Of a stretch of 64,000 nucleotides of DNA, positions 402-35,097 are shown one piece after another; within the stretch, counting starts at the first letter, position 1, and every line of letters starts with the position of its first letter. The notes below the pieces were generated by a model. The model saw only the letters and a list, made by a program, of their open reading frames with translations. It was not told where the DNA came from and did not search any database. The translations under genes and the position numbers were made by a program. Source of the stretch: Pseudomonadota bacterium (GTDB lineage: Bacteria; Pseudomonadota; Gammaproteobacteria; Burkholderiales; Burkholderiaceae_C); the NCBI GenBank assembly GCA_020161145.1, contig JAIUPQ010000001.1, positions 310,001 through 374,000 on the forward strand. Reading direction: 5' to 3'.

Positions 402-1006
402 GCGGGTGTGACCAAGGGCTTGTAGTCGGCCGCCAGCAGGCCGTAGAAGGCGGTGTCGCTGACCTCGTCGCCCACGATCCAGCGCTGGCGCAGCAGGCCC
501 TCGCGCACAAAGCCCAACTGCTCCAGCGCCCGGCAGGAGGCGAGGTTGCGCGGGTCCGCATCGGCCTCGACGCGGTTGAGCGCCAGCGGCCCGAAGGCGA
601 ACGCCAGCAGCGCGCCCACCGCCTCGCGCATATAGCCGCGCCGCCAGTGCGGGCGGGCGATGCCGTAGCCCAGCTCGGCGCGGCGGCTGGCCCGGTGTAG
701 GTGAAACAGCGAGCAGGTGCCGACGAAGCCCGCCTCGGCCTCGATGGCCAGCCGCAGGTGGATGCCCGCCGCCAGCGCGGGCGCATCGGCCTCGATCTGC
801 GCCTGGGCCTGGCGCAGATCTGTCCACGGTGGGCCGCTCCAGTAGCGCATGAACTGGGCGTCGGCGTGCATGGCAAAGAGTGCGGGCGCATCGTCGGGGT
901 GCATCGGACGCAGCCTCAGGCGGGGGGTGTGCAGGCGCACGTCGGCCAATGACGGCAGGGCGGTGTCGGTGGGCATGGCTTGCATGATGGCGCAGGCGGC
1001 GGCCAT
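398..1006 (-). CDS. RimJ/RimL-like GNAT N-acetyltransferase
   Basis: A 202-residue protein of the Acetyltransf_3 (RimJ/RimL/YdaF) type. It has the N-terminal signature LHTPRLRLRPMHPDDAPALF, a middle block with ELGYGIARPHWRRGYMREAV (acetyl-CoA loop WRRGYMREA) and the conserved NLASCRALEQLGFVREG helix near the C-terminus. Members acetylate protein N-termini, ribosomal proteins or small amines; the specific target is unknown. I chose the ATG at 1006 because it overlaps the creD stop as TGATG. In-frame ATGs at 985 and 976 are alternatives that sit closer to the first conserved block. It lies between creD and a second acetyltransferase in one tight transcription unit. Confidence 0.85.
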   Translation of the reverse strand: MAAACAIMQAMPTDTALPSLADVRLHTPRLRLRPMHPDDAPALFAMHADAQFMRYWSGPPWTDLRQAQAQIEADAPALAAGIHLRLAIEAEAGFVGTCSLFHLHRASRRAELGYGIARPHWRRGYMREAVGALLAFAFGPLALNRVEADADPRNLASCRALEQLGFVREGLLRQRWIVGDEVSDTAFYGLLAADYKPLVTPA

Positions 1007-2349
1007 CAGCCTCGCCCCAGCGCATACCAGTCCACCCGGCGCGTCACCGCCATCACCGCCGCCAGGGCTGCAAACAGCAGCACAGAGCCCAGTGCCAGCG
1101 CGGCCTGCTCCATCTTCAGCAGCGTCCACAGCAGCGCATAGAGCAGCGCGACGCCGCCGCCAAAGGCCAGGCCGGCTCGCCGGCTGCCCAGGGCGTGGCT
1201 GGCGTACCAGGCCAGCAGCAGCGCGCAGGCGCTGGCGGCCAGGGCGTAGGCGGCGTCGAACACCAGGTGCTCCGAGAGGCTGAGCAGCAGCAGAAAGAAG
1301 CTGGCCAGCGCGGCGCCCACCAGCGCGTACTGCACCGGGTGCACGCGGCGCTGGCCCAGCACCTCGACCAGCGCCACGCAGCCCAGCGTCAACACCACGA
1401 ACAGCAGCGCGTACTTGGTGGCGCGGTCCGCCAGCACATAGGGGTTGACCGGGTCGATGAAGGCCACGCCCAGCGTGTCGGCGCAGCCCTCGGGCGCGGC
1501 CTCGCCCTCGGCCAGGATGGGGCAGGCCGCATGGCCGGCGGCCACGCGCTGGGCGGCGTTGCTGGCCAGCGCGCTGACGGTCCAGGTGGCGGCAAAGCCG
1601 CGTGCATCCACCTCGCGCGTGGTGGGCAGAAAGCGGCCACCGAACGAGGGATGCGGCCAGGGCGAGCGCAGCGTCCAGTCGGTCTGCTGGGCGGCGGGCG
1701 CCAGTGCCAGGCGCTCGGTGCCGGCCAGTTGCAGGGTCACCCGGGCCTGCAGCGTCTGGTCAGCGGCCCAGGCGGTGGCGGGCAGCTGGGCATGAAAACC
1801 GCTGTCCGCGCCTGGGTGGCGGCTGCCGGGCTGCACGGCCAGCGGCTGCGCGGCCACGTGCACGGTGGCACTGCGGATGCCGCGTGGGTCGCTGACGGCC
1901 AGCGTCAGCGCAAAGGGCTCGCAGGCCACCTGGCCGTCTTTGTGCAGGGGCACGGGCGGTGGCGGGGGCGCCGCCCACTGGGCGTCCAGCACGGTGTCGG
2001 CCGTGTAGGTGTTGATCCTGAACAGCCCGCGTGTGCGCACCTCGATGGGGGCTTGCGTGGTGGCGCGCAGGGTTTGCGGCGTGTGGGTGCGCACCTGGGT
2101 GGCCTGCGCGGGGGCGGCCGGGGTGTCTTTGGTGGCGGGCACCGTCCAGGTTTCGGTGCAGGCCTGGGTCAGCAACGGACCGGTCAGTGTCTGGGCGCCG
2201 GCCAGCGCCTGGGCCACGCCCTGAGCAGCTTCCTGCTGGCGGGCGCTGCGTTCATCCACCAGCATGCCGATGCGCAGCAGCAGCAACTGCAGCAGCAGCA
2301 ACACCAGCAGCAGCGACAGGACTTTGGTGGTCAGGGGGGCGAGTTTCAT
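1006..2349 (-). CDS. creD: CreD inner membrane protein
   Basis: A 447-residue member of the CreD (CET) family, the classical target of the CreBC two-component system. It has an N-terminal membrane anchor rich in Leu (about residues 8-26), a large extracytoplasmic beta-rich domain (roughly 30-300) and a C-terminal set of about six hydrophobic helices starting at KYALLFVVLTLGCVALVEVLG. In enterobacteria and Aeromonas/Stenotrophomonas relatives CreD is linked to envelope stress and beta-lactam response. Here it lies about 3.7 kb from creBC, on the same strand, separated by a GGDEF/EAL gene and a solute-binding protein gene. Its own upstream region holds a perfect CreB tag at 2415-2430, so separate CreB control is likely. 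No strong Shine-Dalgarno precedes the ATG. Confidence 0.9.
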   Translation of the reverse strand: MKLAPLTTKVLSLLLVLLLLQLLLLRIGMLVDERSARQQEAAQGVAQALAGAQTLTGPLLTQACTETWTVPATKDTPAAPAQATQVRTHTPQTLRATTQAPIEVRTRGLFRINTYTADTVLDAQWAAPPPPPVPLHKDGQVACEPFALTLAVSDPRGIRSATVHVAAQPLAVQPGSRHPGADSGFHAQLPATAWAADQTLQARVTLQLAGTERLALAPAAQQTDWTLRSPWPHPSFGGRFLPTTREVDARGFAATWTVSALASNAAQRVAAGHAACPILAEGEAAPEGCADTLGVAFIDPVNPYVLADRATKYALLFVVLTLGCVALVEVLGQRRVHPVQYALVGAALASFFLLLLSLSEHLVFDAAYALAASACALLLAWYASHALGSRRAGLAFGGGVALLYALLWTLLKMEQAALALGSVLLFAALAAVMAVTRRVDWYALGRG

Positions 2350-2414
2350 GAGGCATGGTGGGTGACAACGATGCCGTCATGGTCGGGCGGGCCGGTGAAG
2401 CGGTGATGGGCTGG

Positions 2415-2430
2415 GTGAAGGCGGCGTGAA
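2415..2430 (-). promoter_or_regulatory. CreB binding site (cre tag) upstream of creD
   Basis: On the minus strand the sequence reads TTCAC-GCCGCC-TTCAC, a perfect match to the E. coli CreB tag TTCAC-N6-TTCAC. It ends 65 bp before the creD ATG. A third TTCAC half-site follows closer to the gene (about 2394-2398). CreB is encoded in the same window, which strengthens the assignment; actual binding is inferred. Confidence 0.75.
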
Positions 2431-2460
2431 GCCGCAAGGCGGCTCGGGGTCGCTGCGGCC

Positions 2461-3744
2461 TTACTTGCGCAGCGCCGCCTTGAGCAGGGGGCGCAGTTCA
2501 TCCACGGTCATGTCGGGACGGCTCCAGAAGTCGAACAGATGGGCTTGCAGGGCGATGCGGATCGACTCCTTCATGGTGGTGCGCGGGCTGGTGAGGCGAT
2601 GGGCGGCATCGGCCAGGCGCGGCAGGCTGGCGCTGGCGCAGGCATCCAGCTCGGTGGCATCGACATCGCGCCGCACCGGCAGCGAGCCTTTGCGGCGTGC
2701 AAATTCGAGCTGCAGGTCGCGTTCAAGCAGCAGCTTGGCCAGCAGGCGCTGGCCGGCCTGCTGGGCGCCCTGGCGCTGGCGTGGAAACCCCACCATGTCG
2801 AGCGCGACCACGAACACACCGTCGGCCTCGGGCGCCGGGGCGCAGACGTAGTCCAGCTGAGCCGACACACCGATCTGCTTGAACTCGCCCTTGGCCCAGT
2901 CGCCCATCACCTGCATGGCGGCCTTGTCGCCCACCACCAGGGCGGTGGCGGCATCCCAGGTCTTGACCGTGGCGGGGGCGGGCCGATAGGCGCGCAGTCG
3001 GCCCAGCAGGTTCAGCACGCGGATGACGCGCGGGTGATCGAACACGGCCGGGTCTTCGTTCTCATACAGGCGCCGATAGAGCTGCGGCCCCGCCGCGCCG
3101 GCCATCATGGTGGAGAACAGCAGACGCACATTCCAGGGCTGATCGCTGATCGCCAGCGGCATCACACCGGCGCGCCGGAACACGGGGGCCTGTGCCAGCA
3201 CCTGGTCCCAGCTGCGCGGCAGCGGCAGTTGCAGCCGCCGGTACAGCTTGGCGTTGTACCAGGCCCAGTTTTCGTTGTGCAGGGTCAGCGGCAGGGCCAG
3301 CACCTCCTCCTTGTGGCGCAGGATGGGCCAGATGAAGTCATACAGATAGCCAGCCCACTGATCCTGCGCCGCCATCGCATCGAGCGGGCGGATCATGCCC
3401 AGACTGCCCATGATGGCGATGTCCTCGGCGCCGGCCCACAGGGCGCCGGGCGGAAAGCCGGCGGCATAGCGCATGACGCTGTCACGCTTCATGAACTCAT
3501 AGTCCAGCGACTGCGATTCGGTCCAGACGCCGCCCCGGTTGCGAAACTGGCGCGCAATCACATCCAGGCCGGCGCGCTCGCTGGCCGAGATCCAGAAATG
3601 GGCGAAGTCCAGGCGCGGGGCCTGTGCCGCAGCGGGCGCCGATGCCGGTGCCGACACCGGCGGTGGCCCCGGCGTCTGGGCCTGGGTCGGCCAGACCCAG
3701 GCCAGACCCAGCAGCAACGCGCCGAGCGGTCGGAGTCGCTTCAT
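2461..3744 (-). CDS. Extracellular solute-binding protein (UgpB/MalE-like)
   Basis: A 427-residue periplasmic protein: signal peptide LRPLGALLLGLAWVWPTQA at the start, then a family-1 type solute-binding fold. Segments typical of sugar or glycerol-phosphate binding proteins are visible: an early FWISASERAGLDVIARQF block, PLTLHNENWAWYNAKLY in the hinge region, and AMQVMGDWAKGEF. No permease or ATPase gene is adjacent, so it is an orphan binding protein. Its ATG (3744) overlaps the stop of the upstream GGDEF/EAL gene as ATGA, so the two are co-translated. I infer it could act as the ligand sensor for that enzyme rather than in uptake. The ligand is not predictable. The gene sits inside the split cre locus. 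Confidence 0.8.
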   Translation of the reverse strand: MKRLRPLGALLLGLAWVWPTQAQTPGPPPVSAPASAPAAAQAPRLDFAHFWISASERAGLDVIARQFRNRGGVWTESQSLDYEFMKRDSVMRYAAGFPPGALWAGAEDIAIMGSLGMIRPLDAMAAQDQWAGYLYDFIWPILRHKEEVLALPLTLHNENWAWYNAKLYRRLQLPLPRSWDQVLAQAPVFRRAGVMPLAISDQPWNVRLLFSTMMAGAAGPQLYRRLYENEDPAVFDHPRVIRVLNLLGRLRAYRPAPATVKTWDAATALVVGDKAAMQVMGDWAKGEFKQIGVSAQLDYVCAPAPEADGVFVVALDMVGFPRQRQGAQQAGQRLLAKLLLERDLQLEFARRKGSLPVRRDVDATELDACASASLPRLADAAHRLTSPRTTMKESIRIALQAHLFDFWSRPDMTVDELRPLLKAALRK

Positions 3745-5837
3745 GACAGGCCTCTTTGCGATGCCGTGTGCAGCTCGGCAGCCTCGGCCAGCAGGCTCAG
3801 CAGGGCCTCGGGGCTGAGCGGCCTGGAGAAGAAGTAGCCCTGGCCGGCAATCTGCGGCCAGGGCTGGAACACCTCGCACTGCGCCGCCGTCTCTATGCCC
3901 TCGGCGATGACCTCGATGCCCAGGCCCACGGCGATGTCGATGATGCCGCGCACGATCAGCAGGGTGCCTGCGTCCTTGAGCATGGCGGACACAAAGCTCT
4001 GGTCGATCTTGATGACGCTGCAGGGAAAGCCGCGCAAATGCGTCAACGAGGCGTAGCCCGTGCCAAAGTCATCGAGCGCCACGCGCACGCCCTGGCGCAT
4101 CAGATGGCGCAAATTGCTTTCGATCAGCCCGCCGCCCTGATTGAGCAGCGCGGTCTCGACCACTTCCACATGCAGCCAATGCAGGTCCCCGGGGCCGAAC
4201 AAGGCTTGCAGGCGCTGCGGCAGGCGCTTGTCGGCCAGGGTCGATTCGGAAAAATTGATGCTCACATAGTCGGGCATCAGCCCCCGCTCGAGCCACTGTT
4301 GACGATCCCTGGCGACACCGCGCAGCATGGCGTCGCTGAGCTGGTCCAGCATGCCGTATTCCTGCAGCGTGGGCAGGAAGTGCGTCGGTGTCAGCACCTC
4401 GCCGTCTTCGGTATGCCAGCGCGCCAAGGCCTCCACGCCCACAATGCGCCGGCTGCGGATGTCATAAATGGGTTGGTAGCAAGGGCGGATGCGCCCCTGG
4501 GCCAGCGCCTCGCCCAGACGATGGCCAAGCAGGTCACGTGCCGCAGCCAGGCCCTGGTCGCATTTGTCGAAGATGCGGATATGGCCCGGCCCTTTCAGCT
4601 TGGCGGTGCGCAGGGCGAAGTCGGCGCGCTTGAGCAGCTCGTCCGCAGTGATCGGGTCGGCGGCCGAGTGCGCTGCCGCGCCAACGCAGGCACGCACCAG
4701 GAATTCCTTGCCCTCGTACTGCATGGGCTTGCTGACTGTCTCGCAGAGCCGGTTGGCCAGCACCACCAGGCCCGATAGATGGAGCTCGCCGTGTATCAGC
4801 ACCGTGAACTCGTCGCTGCCGGTGCGGAACAACGCATCCCCCCGCTTCAGCCGGGCGTGCAGACGATGGGCGATCTGGCCCAGGATGTGGTCACCGGCGG
4901 CATGGCCGAAGATGTCGTTGACGTTCTTGAAATCGTCGATATCAACCAGCAGCACGGCGTGTTCCGGCGCGATCTCGTTGGCCTGCATGGTTAGCAGTTG
5001 CTGGCGCAGCAGCAGTCGGTTGCCGACCCCGGTCAACAGGTCGTGGCTGGCCAGATGGCGCAGCTTGCTGGTGACCCGCGCGAGCTTGTCGTGGCGCAGT
5101 CGCAACTGCTCCAGCATGGGGTGGAAGATCAGCAGGTACTCGGCCAGCAGGGTCAGCAGCGTCACGACGGCCAGCAGCATGTGCACGCGCCGGAAACTCG
5201 CGCTGTTCTCCATCGCCAAGGCATTGAGCTCACCGGCGATGGCTGTGGCCTCGACCATCAGCGCCCCCTCGGCGGCCAGCTCCAGCTCGATGGGCGCCCA
5301 TACCGAAAAGCGCCACTCCACCTGATTGGGATCAAGGGCGGCGAACTTGCGCGTCTGCTCGGCTGCGGCCTCGGTCATGGCCGAGAAGCGCTGCGCCCGC
5401 TGCGTGCTGATCAAGGGCCGGATGAACGGACGCGACAGCGGGTCGTGCATGCGCGCCAGTTCGGCATCGAAGGCCAGTCTGGTGGTGCTGATGTCATCCG
5501 CCAATGCCGCCAGTTCCTGATGCGTGGCCGCCAGCCAGCGTTGGCCGCCCGGGTTCTGGTCCTGGGTGCGCAGGATCAGCTCGACGATCTGCGCCACGCG
5601 GCGCAGATTGCTGCGCTGGCTGGCGGCAATCTCGGTCAGCTTCACCGCATGACTCTGCGCGCGCTGCATGGCGTCGATGATCAGGTAGCTGCCGCAGGCG
5701 ACCAGCGCCAGAATCAGCAGCGCCAGGAAATAGCCGCGCCGCAGCCGCTGCAGCGGCATGTCCAGATCCACGCTTGGCGGCAACTCCGCTGCCGCATCAG
5801 CGCTGGCCCTGTTCCAGCGTCTATATTGGGCTGACAC
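3741..5837 (-). CDS. Membrane GGDEF/EAL cyclic-di-GMP signalling protein
   Basis: About 698 residues. Order: TM helix (about 35-57), periplasmic helical sensor region, second TM (VVTLLTLLAEYLLIF), GGDEF domain, EAL domain. The GGDEF signature reads GSDEF, so the second Gly is replaced by Ser and cyclase activity is doubtful. The EAL domain looks complete: GVEALARW, DDFGTGYAS, IKIDQSFV and AEGIET, consistent with phosphodiesterase activity. I prefer the GTG at 5837, which has GGAG five bases upstream; ATG 5759, just before the first TM, is the alternative. The frame is open to 5990, but that stretch holds a 10-bp tandem repeat and is probably leader. The stop overlaps the start of the solute-binding protein gene. 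Confidence 0.85.
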   Translation of the reverse strand: MSAQYRRWNRASADAAAELPPSVDLDMPLQRLRRGYFLALLILALVACGSYLIIDAMQRAQSHAVKLTEIAASQRSNLRRVAQIVELILRTQDQNPGGQRWLAATHQELAALADDISTTRLAFDAELARMHDPLSRPFIRPLISTQRAQRFSAMTEAAAEQTRKFAALDPNQVEWRFSVWAPIELELAAEGALMVEATAIAGELNALAMENSASFRRVHMLLAVVTLLTLLAEYLLIFHPMLEQLRLRHDKLARVTSKLRHLASHDLLTGVGNRLLLRQQLLTMQANEIAPEHAVLLVDIDDFKNVNDIFGHAAGDHILGQIAHRLHARLKRGDALFRTGSDEFTVLIHGELHLSGLVVLANRLCETVSKPMQYEGKEFLVRACVGAAAHSAADPITADELLKRADFALRTAKLKGPGHIRIFDKCDQGLAAARDLLGHRLGEALAQGRIRPCYQPIYDIRSRRIVGVEALARWHTEDGEVLTPTHFLPTLQEYGMLDQLSDAMLRGVARDRQQWLERGLMPDYVSINFSESTLADKRLPQRLQALFGPGDLHWLHVEVVETALLNQGGGLIESNLRHLMRQGVRVALDDFGTGYASLTHLRGFPCSVIKIDQSFVSAMLKDAGTLLIVRGIIDIAVGLGIEVIAEGIETAAQCEVFQPWPQIAGQGYFFSRPLSPEALLSLLAEAAELHTASQRGLS

Positions 5838-19388: not shown

Positions 19389-20516
19389 TTACCCGCGCCC
19401 GAAATCGAACGTGCGCACGCCGCAGCGGTCAGCGCGGGTCTTGCCGCAATGGACTTGCCAGTCGCCGTGGCGCAGCGCCTTCATCATGTCGGCGTGGCCG
19501 GCGGCCCAGCGCTCCAGCACCGAGGTGCGCGAGAACTCATAGTCCTTGGCCTGGCTTTCGTCGTGCTTGGTGCGGTAGATCAGCTCCACCACGTCCACGG
19601 CATGCGACGGCAACCCACTGATGAGATAGGCCAGATCGGGGTCGGCCTGCATCGCTGCGGGGAGCTTCTCGCGCAGACGCTGCGCGGCCTGGGCCCGCTC
19701 ATACAGGTTCAGCTCCATGGTGGTGTTCAGGCGGGTGCGGCTGGAGTAGCGGATGTCCTTGAGCCGCTCGGCGGCCTCGTCCAGGTTGCGCGGCAGCTTG
19801 CCGCGAGCCGGGAACAAGTCCACCTGGAAGATCAGCCGGTGGCCCTGGGCGGGCTGATCCAGCACGTATTGCAGCGGCGTGTTGGAGACGATGCCGCCAT
19901 CCCAGTAGTAGCGGCCGTCGATCTCCACCGGCGCGAAGGCGGGCGGCAGCGCGCCGCTGGCCATGATGTGGCGCTCGTCGATGCGCTGATGGGCGGTGTC
20001 GAAGTACTTGAAGTTGCCGCTCTCGACATCGACCGCCCCCACGGCCAGGCGCATCGGGCCGTCGTTGAGCAGGTCGAAGTCCACCAGCTCGCGCAGCGTT
20101 TCGGCCAGCGGCGTGGTGTCGTAGTGGCTGATGGCACCGGGCGTGCCCGGCGCCTGGAAGACGGCTGGCGGCACGCGGGGGCGGAAAAACCCAGGGATGC
20201 CAAACCACAGCGCCTGCGCCGCAGCGGCTTCGTTGAACAGGTCGCGGGCCGGCGTCCAGAACGCGGGCGCCGGGGCCGGCAGGGTGGCCGAGACCTTGTC
20301 CCAGAACGCCCGCAGCCGCGCCACGCGCTGGGCCGGCGGGTTGCCGGCGATCAGCGCCGCGTTGATGGCGCCGATGGAGATCCCCGCCACCCCGTGCAGC
20401 GGCATGTCATGGGCGGCCAGCGCATCCATGACACCGCCCTGGTAGGCGCCCAATGCGCCGCCACCCTGGAGCACGAGGACGACTTCGTCATGGGTGGGGG
20501 AGGGGGATGACGGCAT
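19389..20516 (-). CDS. Patatin-like phospholipase with DUF3734-type tail
   Basis: A 375-residue patatin-family serine acyl hydrolase. The oxyanion loop is GGGALGAYQGG (18-28), the nucleophile S47 lies in GISIGA (G-x-S-x-G), and the second dyad residue is in YYWDGGIVSNTPL (Asp of DGG). The C-terminal 100 residues, including the SRTRLNTTMELNLYERAQ region, resemble DUF3734. Patatins of this type hydrolyse phospholipids, and some are linked to polyhydroxyalkanoate granules, which fits the phasin gene directly upstream. ATG 20516 has AGGAG eight bases before it. A terminator-like hairpin lies just ahead of that ribosome-binding site. Confidence 0.88.
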   Translation of the reverse strand: MPSSPSPTHDEVVLVLQGGGALGAYQGGVMDALAAHDMPLHGVAGISIGAINAALIAGNPPAQRVARLRAFWDKVSATLPAPAPAFWTPARDLFNEAAAAQALWFGIPGFFRPRVPPAVFQAPGTPGAISHYDTTPLAETLRELVDFDLLNDGPMRLAVGAVDVESGNFKYFDTAHQRIDERHIMASGALPPAFAPVEIDGRYYWDGGIVSNTPLQYVLDQPAQGHRLIFQVDLFPARGKLPRNLDEAAERLKDIRYSSRTRLNTTMELNLYERAQAAQRLREKLPAAMQADPDLAYLISGLPSHAVDVVELIYRTKHDESQAKDYEFSRTSVLERWAAGHADMMKALRHGDWQVHCGKTRADRCGVRTFDFGRG

Positions 20517-33406: not shown

Positions 33407-34117
33407 TCAGGTCTCCCTTCGGGTGAACAGCAAGTCCCAGACGCCGTGGCCCAGCTTGAGCCCGCGCGCCTCGAACTTGGTCTCGGGCCGGTGCGCCGGG
33501 CGCGGCGCAAAGCCATCGGCCCGGTTGGCCAGCAACGGCTCGGCCTGGAGCACGGCCAGCATGTGGTCGGCGTAGTCCTGCCAGTCGGTGGCGGCATGCA
33601 GCACCCCGCCAGCCGCCAGCCGCGAGGCCACCAGCGCCACCCAGTCGGGCTGCAGGATGCGCCGCTTGTGGTGGCGCTTCTTGGGCCAGGGGTCGGGGAA
33701 GAACAGGTTCAGCCCCGCCAGTGAGGCAGGCGCCACCATCTGCGTCAGCACCTGCACGGCATCGTGCTGGACGATGCGCAGGTTGCGCAGGCCCATCTCA
33801 TCAATGCGCTGCAGCAGCGCCCCCACGCCGGGCACATGCACCTCCACGCCGATGAAGTCCACACCGGGGTGGGCCGCAGCGATGGCGGCCGTGGCCAGGC
33901 CCATGCCGAAGCCCACCTCCATCACCCGTGGCGCGCGGCGGCCGAAGACGGCATCCCAGTCAGGCGGAGTTTCGGTAAACGGCAACACCCAATGCGGCGC
34001 CAGCTCGGCCAGTGCCCGCTGCTGCCCTGTGCCCATGCGCCCGGCGCGCAGCACATAGCTGCGCACGGGCCGGTGGGGGTGGGGGGCATTTGGGGTTTCG
34101 GGTGAGGGGGCCTGCAT
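33407..34117 (-). CDS. trmB: tRNA (guanine-N7-)-methyltransferase
   Basis: A 236-residue enzyme that makes m7G46 in tRNA. Motifs: [18 protein letters not shown] start, [20 protein letters not shown] (SAM), [35 protein letters not shown] (the FPDPWPK signature) and the C-terminal [21 protein letters not shown]. The ATG at 34117 gives the correct N-terminus. The frame is open further upstream through the antisense of the tRNA-Gly gene, a known annotation artefact. Promoter probably lies in the short gap before the divergent tRNA. Confidence 0.95.
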
Positions 34118-34162
34118 GGCGCCGCATTGTGCGGCATTCGAGCTACACTCAGAGGCTGCACA

Positions 34163-34236
34163 GCGGGTGTAGTTCAATGGTAGAACGGCAGCTTCCCAAG
34201 CTTCATACGAGGGTTCGATTCCCTTCACCCGCTCCA
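34163..34236 (+). tRNA. glyU: tRNA-Gly (anticodon CCC)
   Basis: A 74-nt cloverleaf with encoded CCA. Acceptor gcgggtg/cacccgc, D-arm gttc/gaac, anticodon loop ttcccaa (anticodon ccc at 34195-34197), T-arm gaggg/ccctt with loop ttcgatt. It is closely similar to E. coli tRNA-Gly(CCC). The anticodon stem gcagc/gcttc has one C-U mismatch at 28-42. A run of 124-bp repeats copying its last 19 bases follows directly, and trmB is divergent upstream. Confidence 0.97.
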
Positions 34237-34520
34237 ATCAAAACCAGCCAGGGGCTGGTTTTTTTACGGGTGAAGGGGAGCGAACCCATCGCTCGGTTCG
34301 GTCTGGCCCGCCAGGGCCAGGACGGCGGCGTAGCCGCCGGCATTCCCTTCACCCGCTCCAATCAAAACCAGCCAGGGGCTGGTTTTTTTACGGGTGAAGG
34401 GGAGCGAACCCATCGCTCGGTTCGGTCTGGCCCGCCAGGGCCAGGACGGCGGCGTAGCCGCCGGCATTCCCTTCACCCGCTCCAATCAAAACCAGCCAGG
34501 GGCTGTTTTTTTACGGGTGA
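34218..34520 (+). repeat. 124-bp tandem repeats carrying the tRNA-Gly 3' end
   Basis: Unit 1 (34218-34341) and unit 2 (34342-34465) are identical; unit 3 (34466 to about 34520) is partial and diverging. Each begins with the last 19 bp of tRNA-Gly including CCA (34218, 34342, 34466). A terminator hairpin with seven T follows, then a 20-bp inverted copy (34268-34287 in unit 1) of the tRNA T-arm/acceptor strand with 18 of 20 bases complementary. Two GC hairpins close the unit (ctggccc/gggccag and ggcggc/gccgcc). No protein-coding frame in this 387-bp stretch is credible. The arrangement parallels the E. coli tyrT repeats that yield rtT RNA, though the sequences are unrelated. Confidence 0.95.
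34242..34265 (+). terminator. tRNA-Gly intrinsic terminator (repeat unit 1)
   Basis: aaccagcc, loop agg, ggctggtt, then a seven-T run; begins 5 bp after the tRNA CCA. The same hairpin recurs in unit 2 at 34366-34389. In unit 3 a lost G (34490-34512) shortens the stem, which should weaken it. Confidence 0.9.
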
Positions 34521-34623
34521 AACAAAGCGAAATAAAACGCGACCGGCCTGAGATGCGGCGCGACGCGGTGAGCGGCACCATGAGGGTCATGTTCAACTCC
34601 CTTCCATAACAAGGAGGATCCCC

Positions 34624-35097
34624 ATGAAGATCACCCGCAAACGCATGGTCATTGTCCTGGCCAGTGCCACCCTGTTGATCGGCGGTCTGGTCGCCTGCGG
34701 CGTGCGTGGATCGCACGATTGGAGCGAAGCGCGCATCACCGAGATGCGCGGCAAGATGGTCGAGCGCATCAGCGACAAGCTGGCGCTCAATGCCGAGCAG
34801 AAGCAACGGCTCGAAGTCGTGGCCACCGAGATGGACGCTCAGCGCAAGGCATTGCGCGGTGACGGCGCCAGTCCGCGTGACGACATCAAGGCCTTGATTG
34901 CGGGCGACCGATTCGACCGCAGCAAGGCGCAGGCGCTGCTGGACCAGAAGACCGCCGCCGTGCAGCAGCAGGCGCCCAAGGTGGTGACGGCGCTGGCCGA
35001 CTTCTATGACAGCCTGACACCGACGCAGCAGCAGCAGGTTCGCGAGCGCCTCGACCAGCGCGGTGACGGTGGGCGCTGGCACGGCCCTGGCTTCTGA
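34624..35097 (+). CDS. Spy/CpxP-like periplasmic lipoprotein
   Basis: 157 residues. The N-terminus KRMVIVLASATLLIGGLVAC has a lipobox-like LVAC, so it may be lipidated at C25. The mature part is helical with two LTxxQ-type motifs (LNAEQKQRLE and LTPTQQQQVR), the hallmark of Spy/CpxP proteins that act as periplasmic chaperones or inhibitors of envelope-stress kinases. AAGGAGG precedes the ATG. It is followed after 20 bp by a response regulator and its kinase, the same order as a CpxP-CpxR-CpxA module, so it probably modulates that kinase. Confidence 0.82.
   Translation: MKITRKRMVIVLASATLLIGGLVACGVRGSHDWSEARITEMRGKMVERISDKLALNAEQKQRLEVVATEMDAQRKALRGDGASPRDDIKALIAGDRFDRSKAQALLDQKTAAVQQQAPKVVTALADFYDSLTPTQQQQVRERLDQRGDGGRWHGPGF

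Follow-up and report, generated by a model that had tools for sequence, protein, structure and literature searches.

A tRNA-Gly(CCC) tail-repeat array of an Ideonella-type betaproteobacterium as a probable member of the TLR family

Introduction

Directly behind a tRNA-Gly(CCC) gene of an Ideonella-type betaproteobacterium lies a tandem array whose units each begin with the end of that gene. Is this array an independent case of the architecture seen in the rtT repeats of E. coli tyrT, as the original prediction from the letters of the DNA held, or a member of the same family, and what could an RNA made from it do? Here, the window denotes the whole stretch of 64,000 nucleotides that was analysed.

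The tRNA-linked repeats (TLRs) of E. coli K-12 go back to Egan and Landy (1978) and Rudd (1999), as given in PMC8144298, which states that no function is known for them and records the retraction of the rtT starvation phenotype. RtT is reported from Pasteurellaceae (excerpt of PMC4986893) and contains a tandem GA motif (excerpt of PMC7657543). The literature excerpts searched contain no TLRs outside the Gammaproteobacteria and no mention of an inverted tRNA copy in TLRs, though earlier notice of it is possible; the word "inverted" is absent from PMC8144298.

The repeat array in the window

The array has the top score (601) among the 12 tandem-repeat rows of the window, the runner-up reaching 71. 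As predicted, the tRNA gene is directly followed in the assembled sequence by two 124-bp units of identical sequence and part of a third, each beginning with the last 19 nt of tRNA-Gly, an exact 19-mer found at 34218, 34342 and 34466 (Table 1). ARAGORN reports a single tRNA gene at the locus, so the tail copies are not part of full tandem tRNA genes. Elsewhere in the window it reports a tRNA-Pro(GGG) of 99 bases (20240-20338, minus strand), which lies in GC-rich sequence and is probably spurious.

Table 1. Features of the tRNA-Gly(CCC) locus, in window positions
Feature	Position	Strand	Basis
tRNA-Gly(CCC), CCA encoded, donor of the repeated tail	34163..34236	+	ARAGORN; Rfam RF00005, 67 bits
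Repeat unit 1 in tRNA-tail register, 124 bp	34218..34341	+	sequence comparison
Repeat unit 2, same sequence as unit 1	34342..34465	+	sequence comparison
Partial unit 3: tail copy, terminator, start of eroded anti-tRNA arm	34466..34521, arm to ~34531	+	
Terminator-like hairpin T1	34240..34265; again 34364-34389, 34488-34512	+	hairpin scan, predicted fold
TLR-like RNA core 1: anti-tRNA arm, T-arm-like hairpin, module, tail copy	34266..34360	+	R1
TLR-like RNA core 2	34390..34484	+	R1, scores equal to core 1
Anti-tRNA arm (inverted copy of tRNA-Gly 34211-34231)	34267..34287; again 34391-34411	+	19/21 identical
Putative T-arm-like hairpin H1, GAACC ... GGTTCG	34282..34300	+	predicted fold
Reduced module: two predicted GC-rich hairpins	34303..34339 (34303-34320, 34323-34339)	+	predicted fold
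Tail copy: final 19 nt of the tRNA, making up the 3' side of helix P1	34342..34360	+	exact 19-mer

One 124-bp unit has a predicted fold of -76.9 kcal/mol, against -49 +/- 4.05 in 200 shuffles (z -6.9). The terminator that had been proposed for each unit appears as a terminator-like hairpin behind each tail; a scan around the array finds four such hairpin sites over 2 kb, where shuffled sequence gives 1.5 +/- 1.5, which is weak support if taken alone. The inverted tRNA copy is likewise present, its identity counting as 19 of 21 positions rather than the 18 of 20 first given, and the two further hairpins expected per unit are found in the predicted fold. With nt 49-72 of the tRNA, the anti-tRNA arm of units 1 and 2 is predicted to form a duplex of -40.8 kcal/mol, in keeping with the earlier suggestion that it could pair with the 3' half of the tRNA; the eroded arm behind the last tail copy, in partial unit 3, reaches only -17.0 kcal/mol.

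Relatives in the genus and family

Searches for relatives covered 60 genomes and then 16 genomes of the genus. The unit lies behind tRNA-Gly(CCC) in three of the latter: its own genome and two relatives, G014 and G002. The G014 and G002 units are 163 bp each, and in G002 an intron interrupts the tRNA. The terminator found behind the second tail copy in G014 directly adjoins the tRNA in G010. A 183-bp unit (L066) occurs in one further genus of the family (G060), with no full tRNA in the 6-kb stretch examined; the other six of seven family BLAST matches outside the genus (L060-L065) were rejected as GC-rich sequence lacking the tail repeat. A blastn search of plasmids with the unit gave no match.

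Two loci deserve separate mention. The G015 contig (L050, G015:C186) breaks off at nt 51 of tRNA-Gly(CCC), which is what a tail repeat disrupting the assembly would produce, and this break leaves that genome undecided. The intron of G002 (L049, about 823-3700 of a 14824-base contig, minus strand) is of group II and splits tRNA-Gly(CCC) after the anticodon; it matches Rfam RF02012 and RF00029 and carries an ORF with reverse transcriptase, maturase and HNH domains. It also holds a complete second tRNA-Gly(CCC), by eye the same sequence as in genomes of the same genus (L051, L054), as if the intron had brought a replacement tRNA.

Relationship to the E. coli TLRs

In common with E. coli TLRs, the window array lies immediately behind a tRNA gene, repeats its tail over 19 bp (18-19 nt in E. 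coli), has a unit number within the range of one to five per locus (two full units and a partial one), and places a terminator between RNA gene and unit, as in the order T1-TLR-T2 at rrnB. It shares with the E. coli tyrT rtT of Rfam RF00391 the arm, a GAACC..GGTTCGA hairpin and the tail copy, and likewise has a predicted hairpin module. It differs from the E. coli TLRs in its betaproteobacterial host, its tRNA-Gly(CCC), its 124-bp unit and a module of only two hairpins.

The training set of a covariance model, R1, comprised two E. coli RtT units and four Gly units from alphaproteobacteria, with no Ideonella sequence. In 329 kb from 58 chosen sources, R1 finds both window units at 30.8 bits (E=6e-5), a score that the alignment shows to be carried by arm and tail, where the training set contains Gly tails resembling those of the window. 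This marks an arm/tail helix like that of known members; H1, which is counted in the family alignment, is yet unaligned in the match. The window units are the best match outside the training loci, followed by L070, L069 (Paenibacillus), L090 (G014) and others. Within their own genome they are found at E=6.5e-4, and around tRNA-Gly itself the best score is 14.2 bits.

For the hairpin module, a mean local-alignment test against other TLR modules gave 23 of 300 shuffles as good as the window module, whose likeness is not significant by itself, and none of 300 as good as that of G014, whose unit aligns to the window through the module (BLAST E 1.9e-8 and 3.5e-5). Membership is thus direct for arm and tail, through R1, and bridged by G014 for the module. 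This test replaced a profile of 59 modules that was too gappy, scoring G014 above its 500 shuffles and leaving the window unscored. The Rfam RtT model RF00391 has no match at E<=5 in window positions 33900-34900, where its gathering score of 45 bits is not reached, and none at E<=0.01 in the window's own genome (G000), G014 or G060.

Judged from sequence, the window array is most likely a TLR array, shortened and diverged, of an Ideonella-type betaproteobacterium, and its repeat looks like a member of the same family as the E. coli TLRs, rtT included. The likeness to tyrT and rtT drawn in the original prediction therefore stands, while its reading as an independent case looks less likely given the R1 match and the full TLR module of G014, against which stands the failure of RF00391 itself to reach the window.

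Spread across tRNAs and taxa

Scanning genome contigs for pairs of Gly tails spaced 107-167 bp apart yielded 22 pattern loci, 20 of which contain one tRNA-Gly by ARAGORN in the stretch examined; in the others, the gene is cut by a contig end (L074) or split by an intron (L083). Many of the units share their fold with the E. coli rtT repeats. R1 matches a unit at E<=0.1 in 13 of the 22 loci, among them the training loci L072, L073, L086 and L087 and two matched over a short stretch only (L081, L082); L074 and L078 follow at 0.52, and seven loci have none. RF00391 reaches two of the eight loci given to it, below its cut-off.

Across Pseudomonadota, R1 matches occur in at least 22 of 398 genomes, the window's own included. 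A second model, R2, was made from 72 matches that include the window and several pattern loci; it finds units in at least 10 of the 19 genomes that contain the pattern loci, a result that is in part by construction, and, in the covariance search of the order Burkholderiales that had been proposed, in at least 16 of 399 genomes, the window's own included. Relatives of a Paenibacillus unit occur in at least 13 of 104 genomes of its family, that of the unit included. These counts are lower bounds because few candidates per genome were scored where genomes were many. Five weak R2 matches in G000, G014 and G060 (L134-L138) had no tRNA within about 1.5 kb and were set aside as chance.

The tRNAs upstream of the units are Tyr, Lys, Pro, Ser, Asp, Arg, Gly and His, together with Gln and Phe, behind which the tail copies are truncated or odd. 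Units also occur in alphaproteobacteria, Alloalcanivorax and Paenibacillaceae. The tRNA-Gly(TCC) of Paenibacillaceae encodes no CCA. Of 13 loci examined there, 8 have a tail copy that agrees with the end of the tRNA over 16 nt, and four yielded no resolved unit. Overall, a short flank or the lack of a near tail match kept units from being delimited at L151, L153, L158-L161, L163, L164, L168, L156 and L147, of which L147, L156, L158, L160 and L161 were read by eye; a further list comprises L174, L175, L179, L180, L189, L192 and L193 with six of the preceding set. The longest array seen, at L129 (G794:C5:241300-244000), has six tandem TLR matches behind two tRNA-Tyr genes.

Among 28 TLR-bearing genomes tested, RF00391 exceeds its cut-off in 9, with several loci in each; six of these belong to the same class and three to a different one within the phylum. 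Association with multiple tRNAs in enterobacteria-like genomes is therefore not new. It stays below the cut-off in four alphaproteobacterial genomes and is absent at E<=0.01 from all 11 Burkholderiales tested (own, G014 and G060 included) and from one alphaproteobacterium, Paenibacillus, Tritonobacter and Alloalcanivorax; among 14 control genomes, E. coli was the sole match. The units of Burkholderiales, Paenibacillaceae and most alphaproteobacteria are outside the curated RF00391 family. The presence of TLRs in Burkholderiales, alphaproteobacteria and Paenibacillaceae, mostly beyond the Rfam model, suggests that they occur more widely than described.

Copies of tRNA-gene tails are typical att remnants, and the array could in principle be the scar of an integrative element, its tail copies being att sites of a prophage or island at the tRNA. 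Six loci look like such tail duplications lacking a TLR unit (L071, L075, L076, L077, L080, L089). At the window, however, Pfam finds no integrase or transposase in eight flanking proteins (about 30.8-37.8 kb), and the same folded unit recurs with the tails of many different tRNAs; we regard the scar as highly improbable. Among the six, L080 of Polymorphobacter glacialis has three 77-bp units behind tRNA-Gly(CCC), each ending in the tRNA tail, and no TLR unit.

Arm and tail follow the upstream tRNA

Unit statistics were drawn from 72 of 79 records. The six loci of tail repeats without a TLR unit were dropped by eye, as was L165, TLR-like but with an odd tail and lying behind tRNA-Gln; L081, L082 and L085 stayed in despite doubtful membership. 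For 61 of these 72 units, the copied tail agrees with the upstream tRNA over a length of 18-19 nt, from the T-loop, at what we take from tRNA numbering to be about nt 58/59, to CCA. An inverted copy of roughly nt 49-72 of the unit's own tRNA precedes the tail copy.

In an alignment of 63 distinct sequences fitted to the structure, 86.8% of pairs in P1 and H1 are standard; double-change cells number 170 against 60.2 +/- 9.6 when shuffled, and the covariation score is 0.370 against 0.165 +/- 0.010 (slid controls, at most 0.130). The pairs changed on both sides number 10, no higher than in shuffles (332/500). Arm and tail agree, and this agreement could stem from copying and not from selection.

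Copying is central to a reading in which TLRs are selfish or mutational hairpin elements of no use to the host. They would arise or spread at the T-loop of tRNA genes when a stretch is copied in inverted orientation across the palindrome of the terminator and then duplicated in tandem. The start of the copy near nt 58/59 in 61 of 72 units fits such an origin, as do the patchy distribution (3 of 16 genomes in the genus search), the G010 tRNA that runs directly into the terminator known from G014, the tandem copies with their six matches in G794, and the tRNA-Phe of Alloalcanivorax (L147), where the terminator hairpin continues into the inverted copy and CCA is missing from the tail copy. Elements resembling rtT also lie inside enterobacterial BIME repeats (excerpt of PMC2965389). 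Against this, the hairpin module is retained in distant taxa, arm-tail covariation exceeds its controls, and in E. coli some TLR RNAs are produced and interact with CsrA and Hfq by binding (excerpt of PMC8144298). On balance, an element of no use to its host appears rather unlikely.

The pairing of unit and tRNA was compared between own and foreign tRNAs. Joint folding gains -9.39 kcal/mol with the own tRNA against -2.76 for the mean of four random foreign tRNAs, and is stronger with the own tRNA than with that mean in all 72 units, which are not phylogenetically independent. The antisense duplex averages -29.7 against -22.2 kcal/mol and is stronger in 68 of 72, and by anticodon kind the own tRNA is preferred in 13 of 13. 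A test of the arm against foreign tails, weaker than that of the whole unit, gives a mean of -17.8 for the own tail against -12.1 kcal/mol; the own tail beats every other-kind tail in only 14 of 46 units, and in L072 and L110 pairs worse than the average foreign tail. The copy of the T-stem 5' strand in H1 has a slight edge for the own tRNA (3.60 against 3.00 of 5 for other kinds). Arm and tail thus track the upstream tRNA across many tRNA kinds.

A possible masked anti-tRNA strand

Such pairing could make the array a switch, in which the anti-tRNA strand holds the upstream tRNA unprocessed, tail-copy decoys free it, and read-through tunes tRNA output. In joint folds, the 3' half of the tRNA forms at least eight pairs with the unit in 66 of 72 cases, the own tRNA is preferred throughout, and the arm behind the window's last tail copy is eroded (-17.0 against -40.8 kcal/mol), all as a switch would have it. 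The tRNA, however, folds before the arm is made, the predicted folds ignore modifications and tertiary contacts, and in the rrnB 5S TLR a 16-mer search allowing up to three mismatches finds no inverted copy of the 5S end; the joint folding gain of that TLR with 5S is 12.1 kcal/mol, a value without a control. We consider a switch of this kind quite improbable.

The reading that we prefer, with a probability of roughly 0.6, is a TLR array with a self-masked anti-tRNA strand, whose read-through RNA is freed by tRNA 3'-end processing. Each unit runs from terminator to anti-tRNA strand, then through the predicted T-arm-like hairpin and module to a fresh tail copy. Polymerase passing the first terminator would yield a structured read-through RNA, its anti-tRNA strand probably masked through helix P1, by the split tail copy within the same unit and not by the tRNA, which could then still mature. 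The tail copy would present a tRNA-like 3' end for trimming by tRNA 3'-processing enzymes, and this trimming would set free a small RNA at least about 95 nt long. In 66 of 72 units, minimum-energy folding favours pairing of the anti-tRNA strand with the tRNA over pairing with the unit's tail copy, so masking would need co-transcriptional folding; since the tRNA is made and folded first, we take masking by the tail copy to be more likely in the cell.

Transcripts of E. coli offer parallels, described here from excerpts of PMC8144298. The 5S-linked TLR RNAs RrA, RrB and RrF arise by read-through between two terminators (about 173 and 115 nt), the long form having its 3' end, ascribed to RNase E, 3 nt past the tail copy; their deletion and overexpression have modest effects. 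They share with the window array a unit between two terminators and a tail copy of the upstream RNA gene; they differ in an exact 3' identity that we count as 13 nt (18 bp in PMC8144298), in having no inverted copy of the 5S end, and in having no R2 match. As described there, 3'ETS-leuZ also comes from behind tRNAs by RNase E-dependent release, but it sponges two sRNAs.

Their wide spread, and an inverted copy that follows the local tRNA, give TLRs the look of a general class and not of something peculiar to enterobacteria. That they are widespread self-masking cis-antisense elements, each with an antisense to the 3' half of its own upstream tRNA and a split decoy copy of that half, with read-through feeding back on tRNA maturation and a released RNA that mimics the acceptor/T-stem end, is a speculative extension that we think unlikely as a whole. 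An anti-tRNA strand held by a split tail copy is nevertheless a concrete structural hypothesis, testable in E. coli K-12.

Two observations concern individual alphaproteobacterial and tRNA-Gly loci. Just behind the alphaproteobacterial TLR unit of L086, an Rfam STnc490 match (4528-4636) scores 49.8 bits, the cut-off being 56. At L072, L073 and L087, tRNA-Gly(GCC) has an apparent C6-A67 acceptor mismatch that is common to the tRNA and the TLR tail copies and reads as a concerted change of tail and copies.
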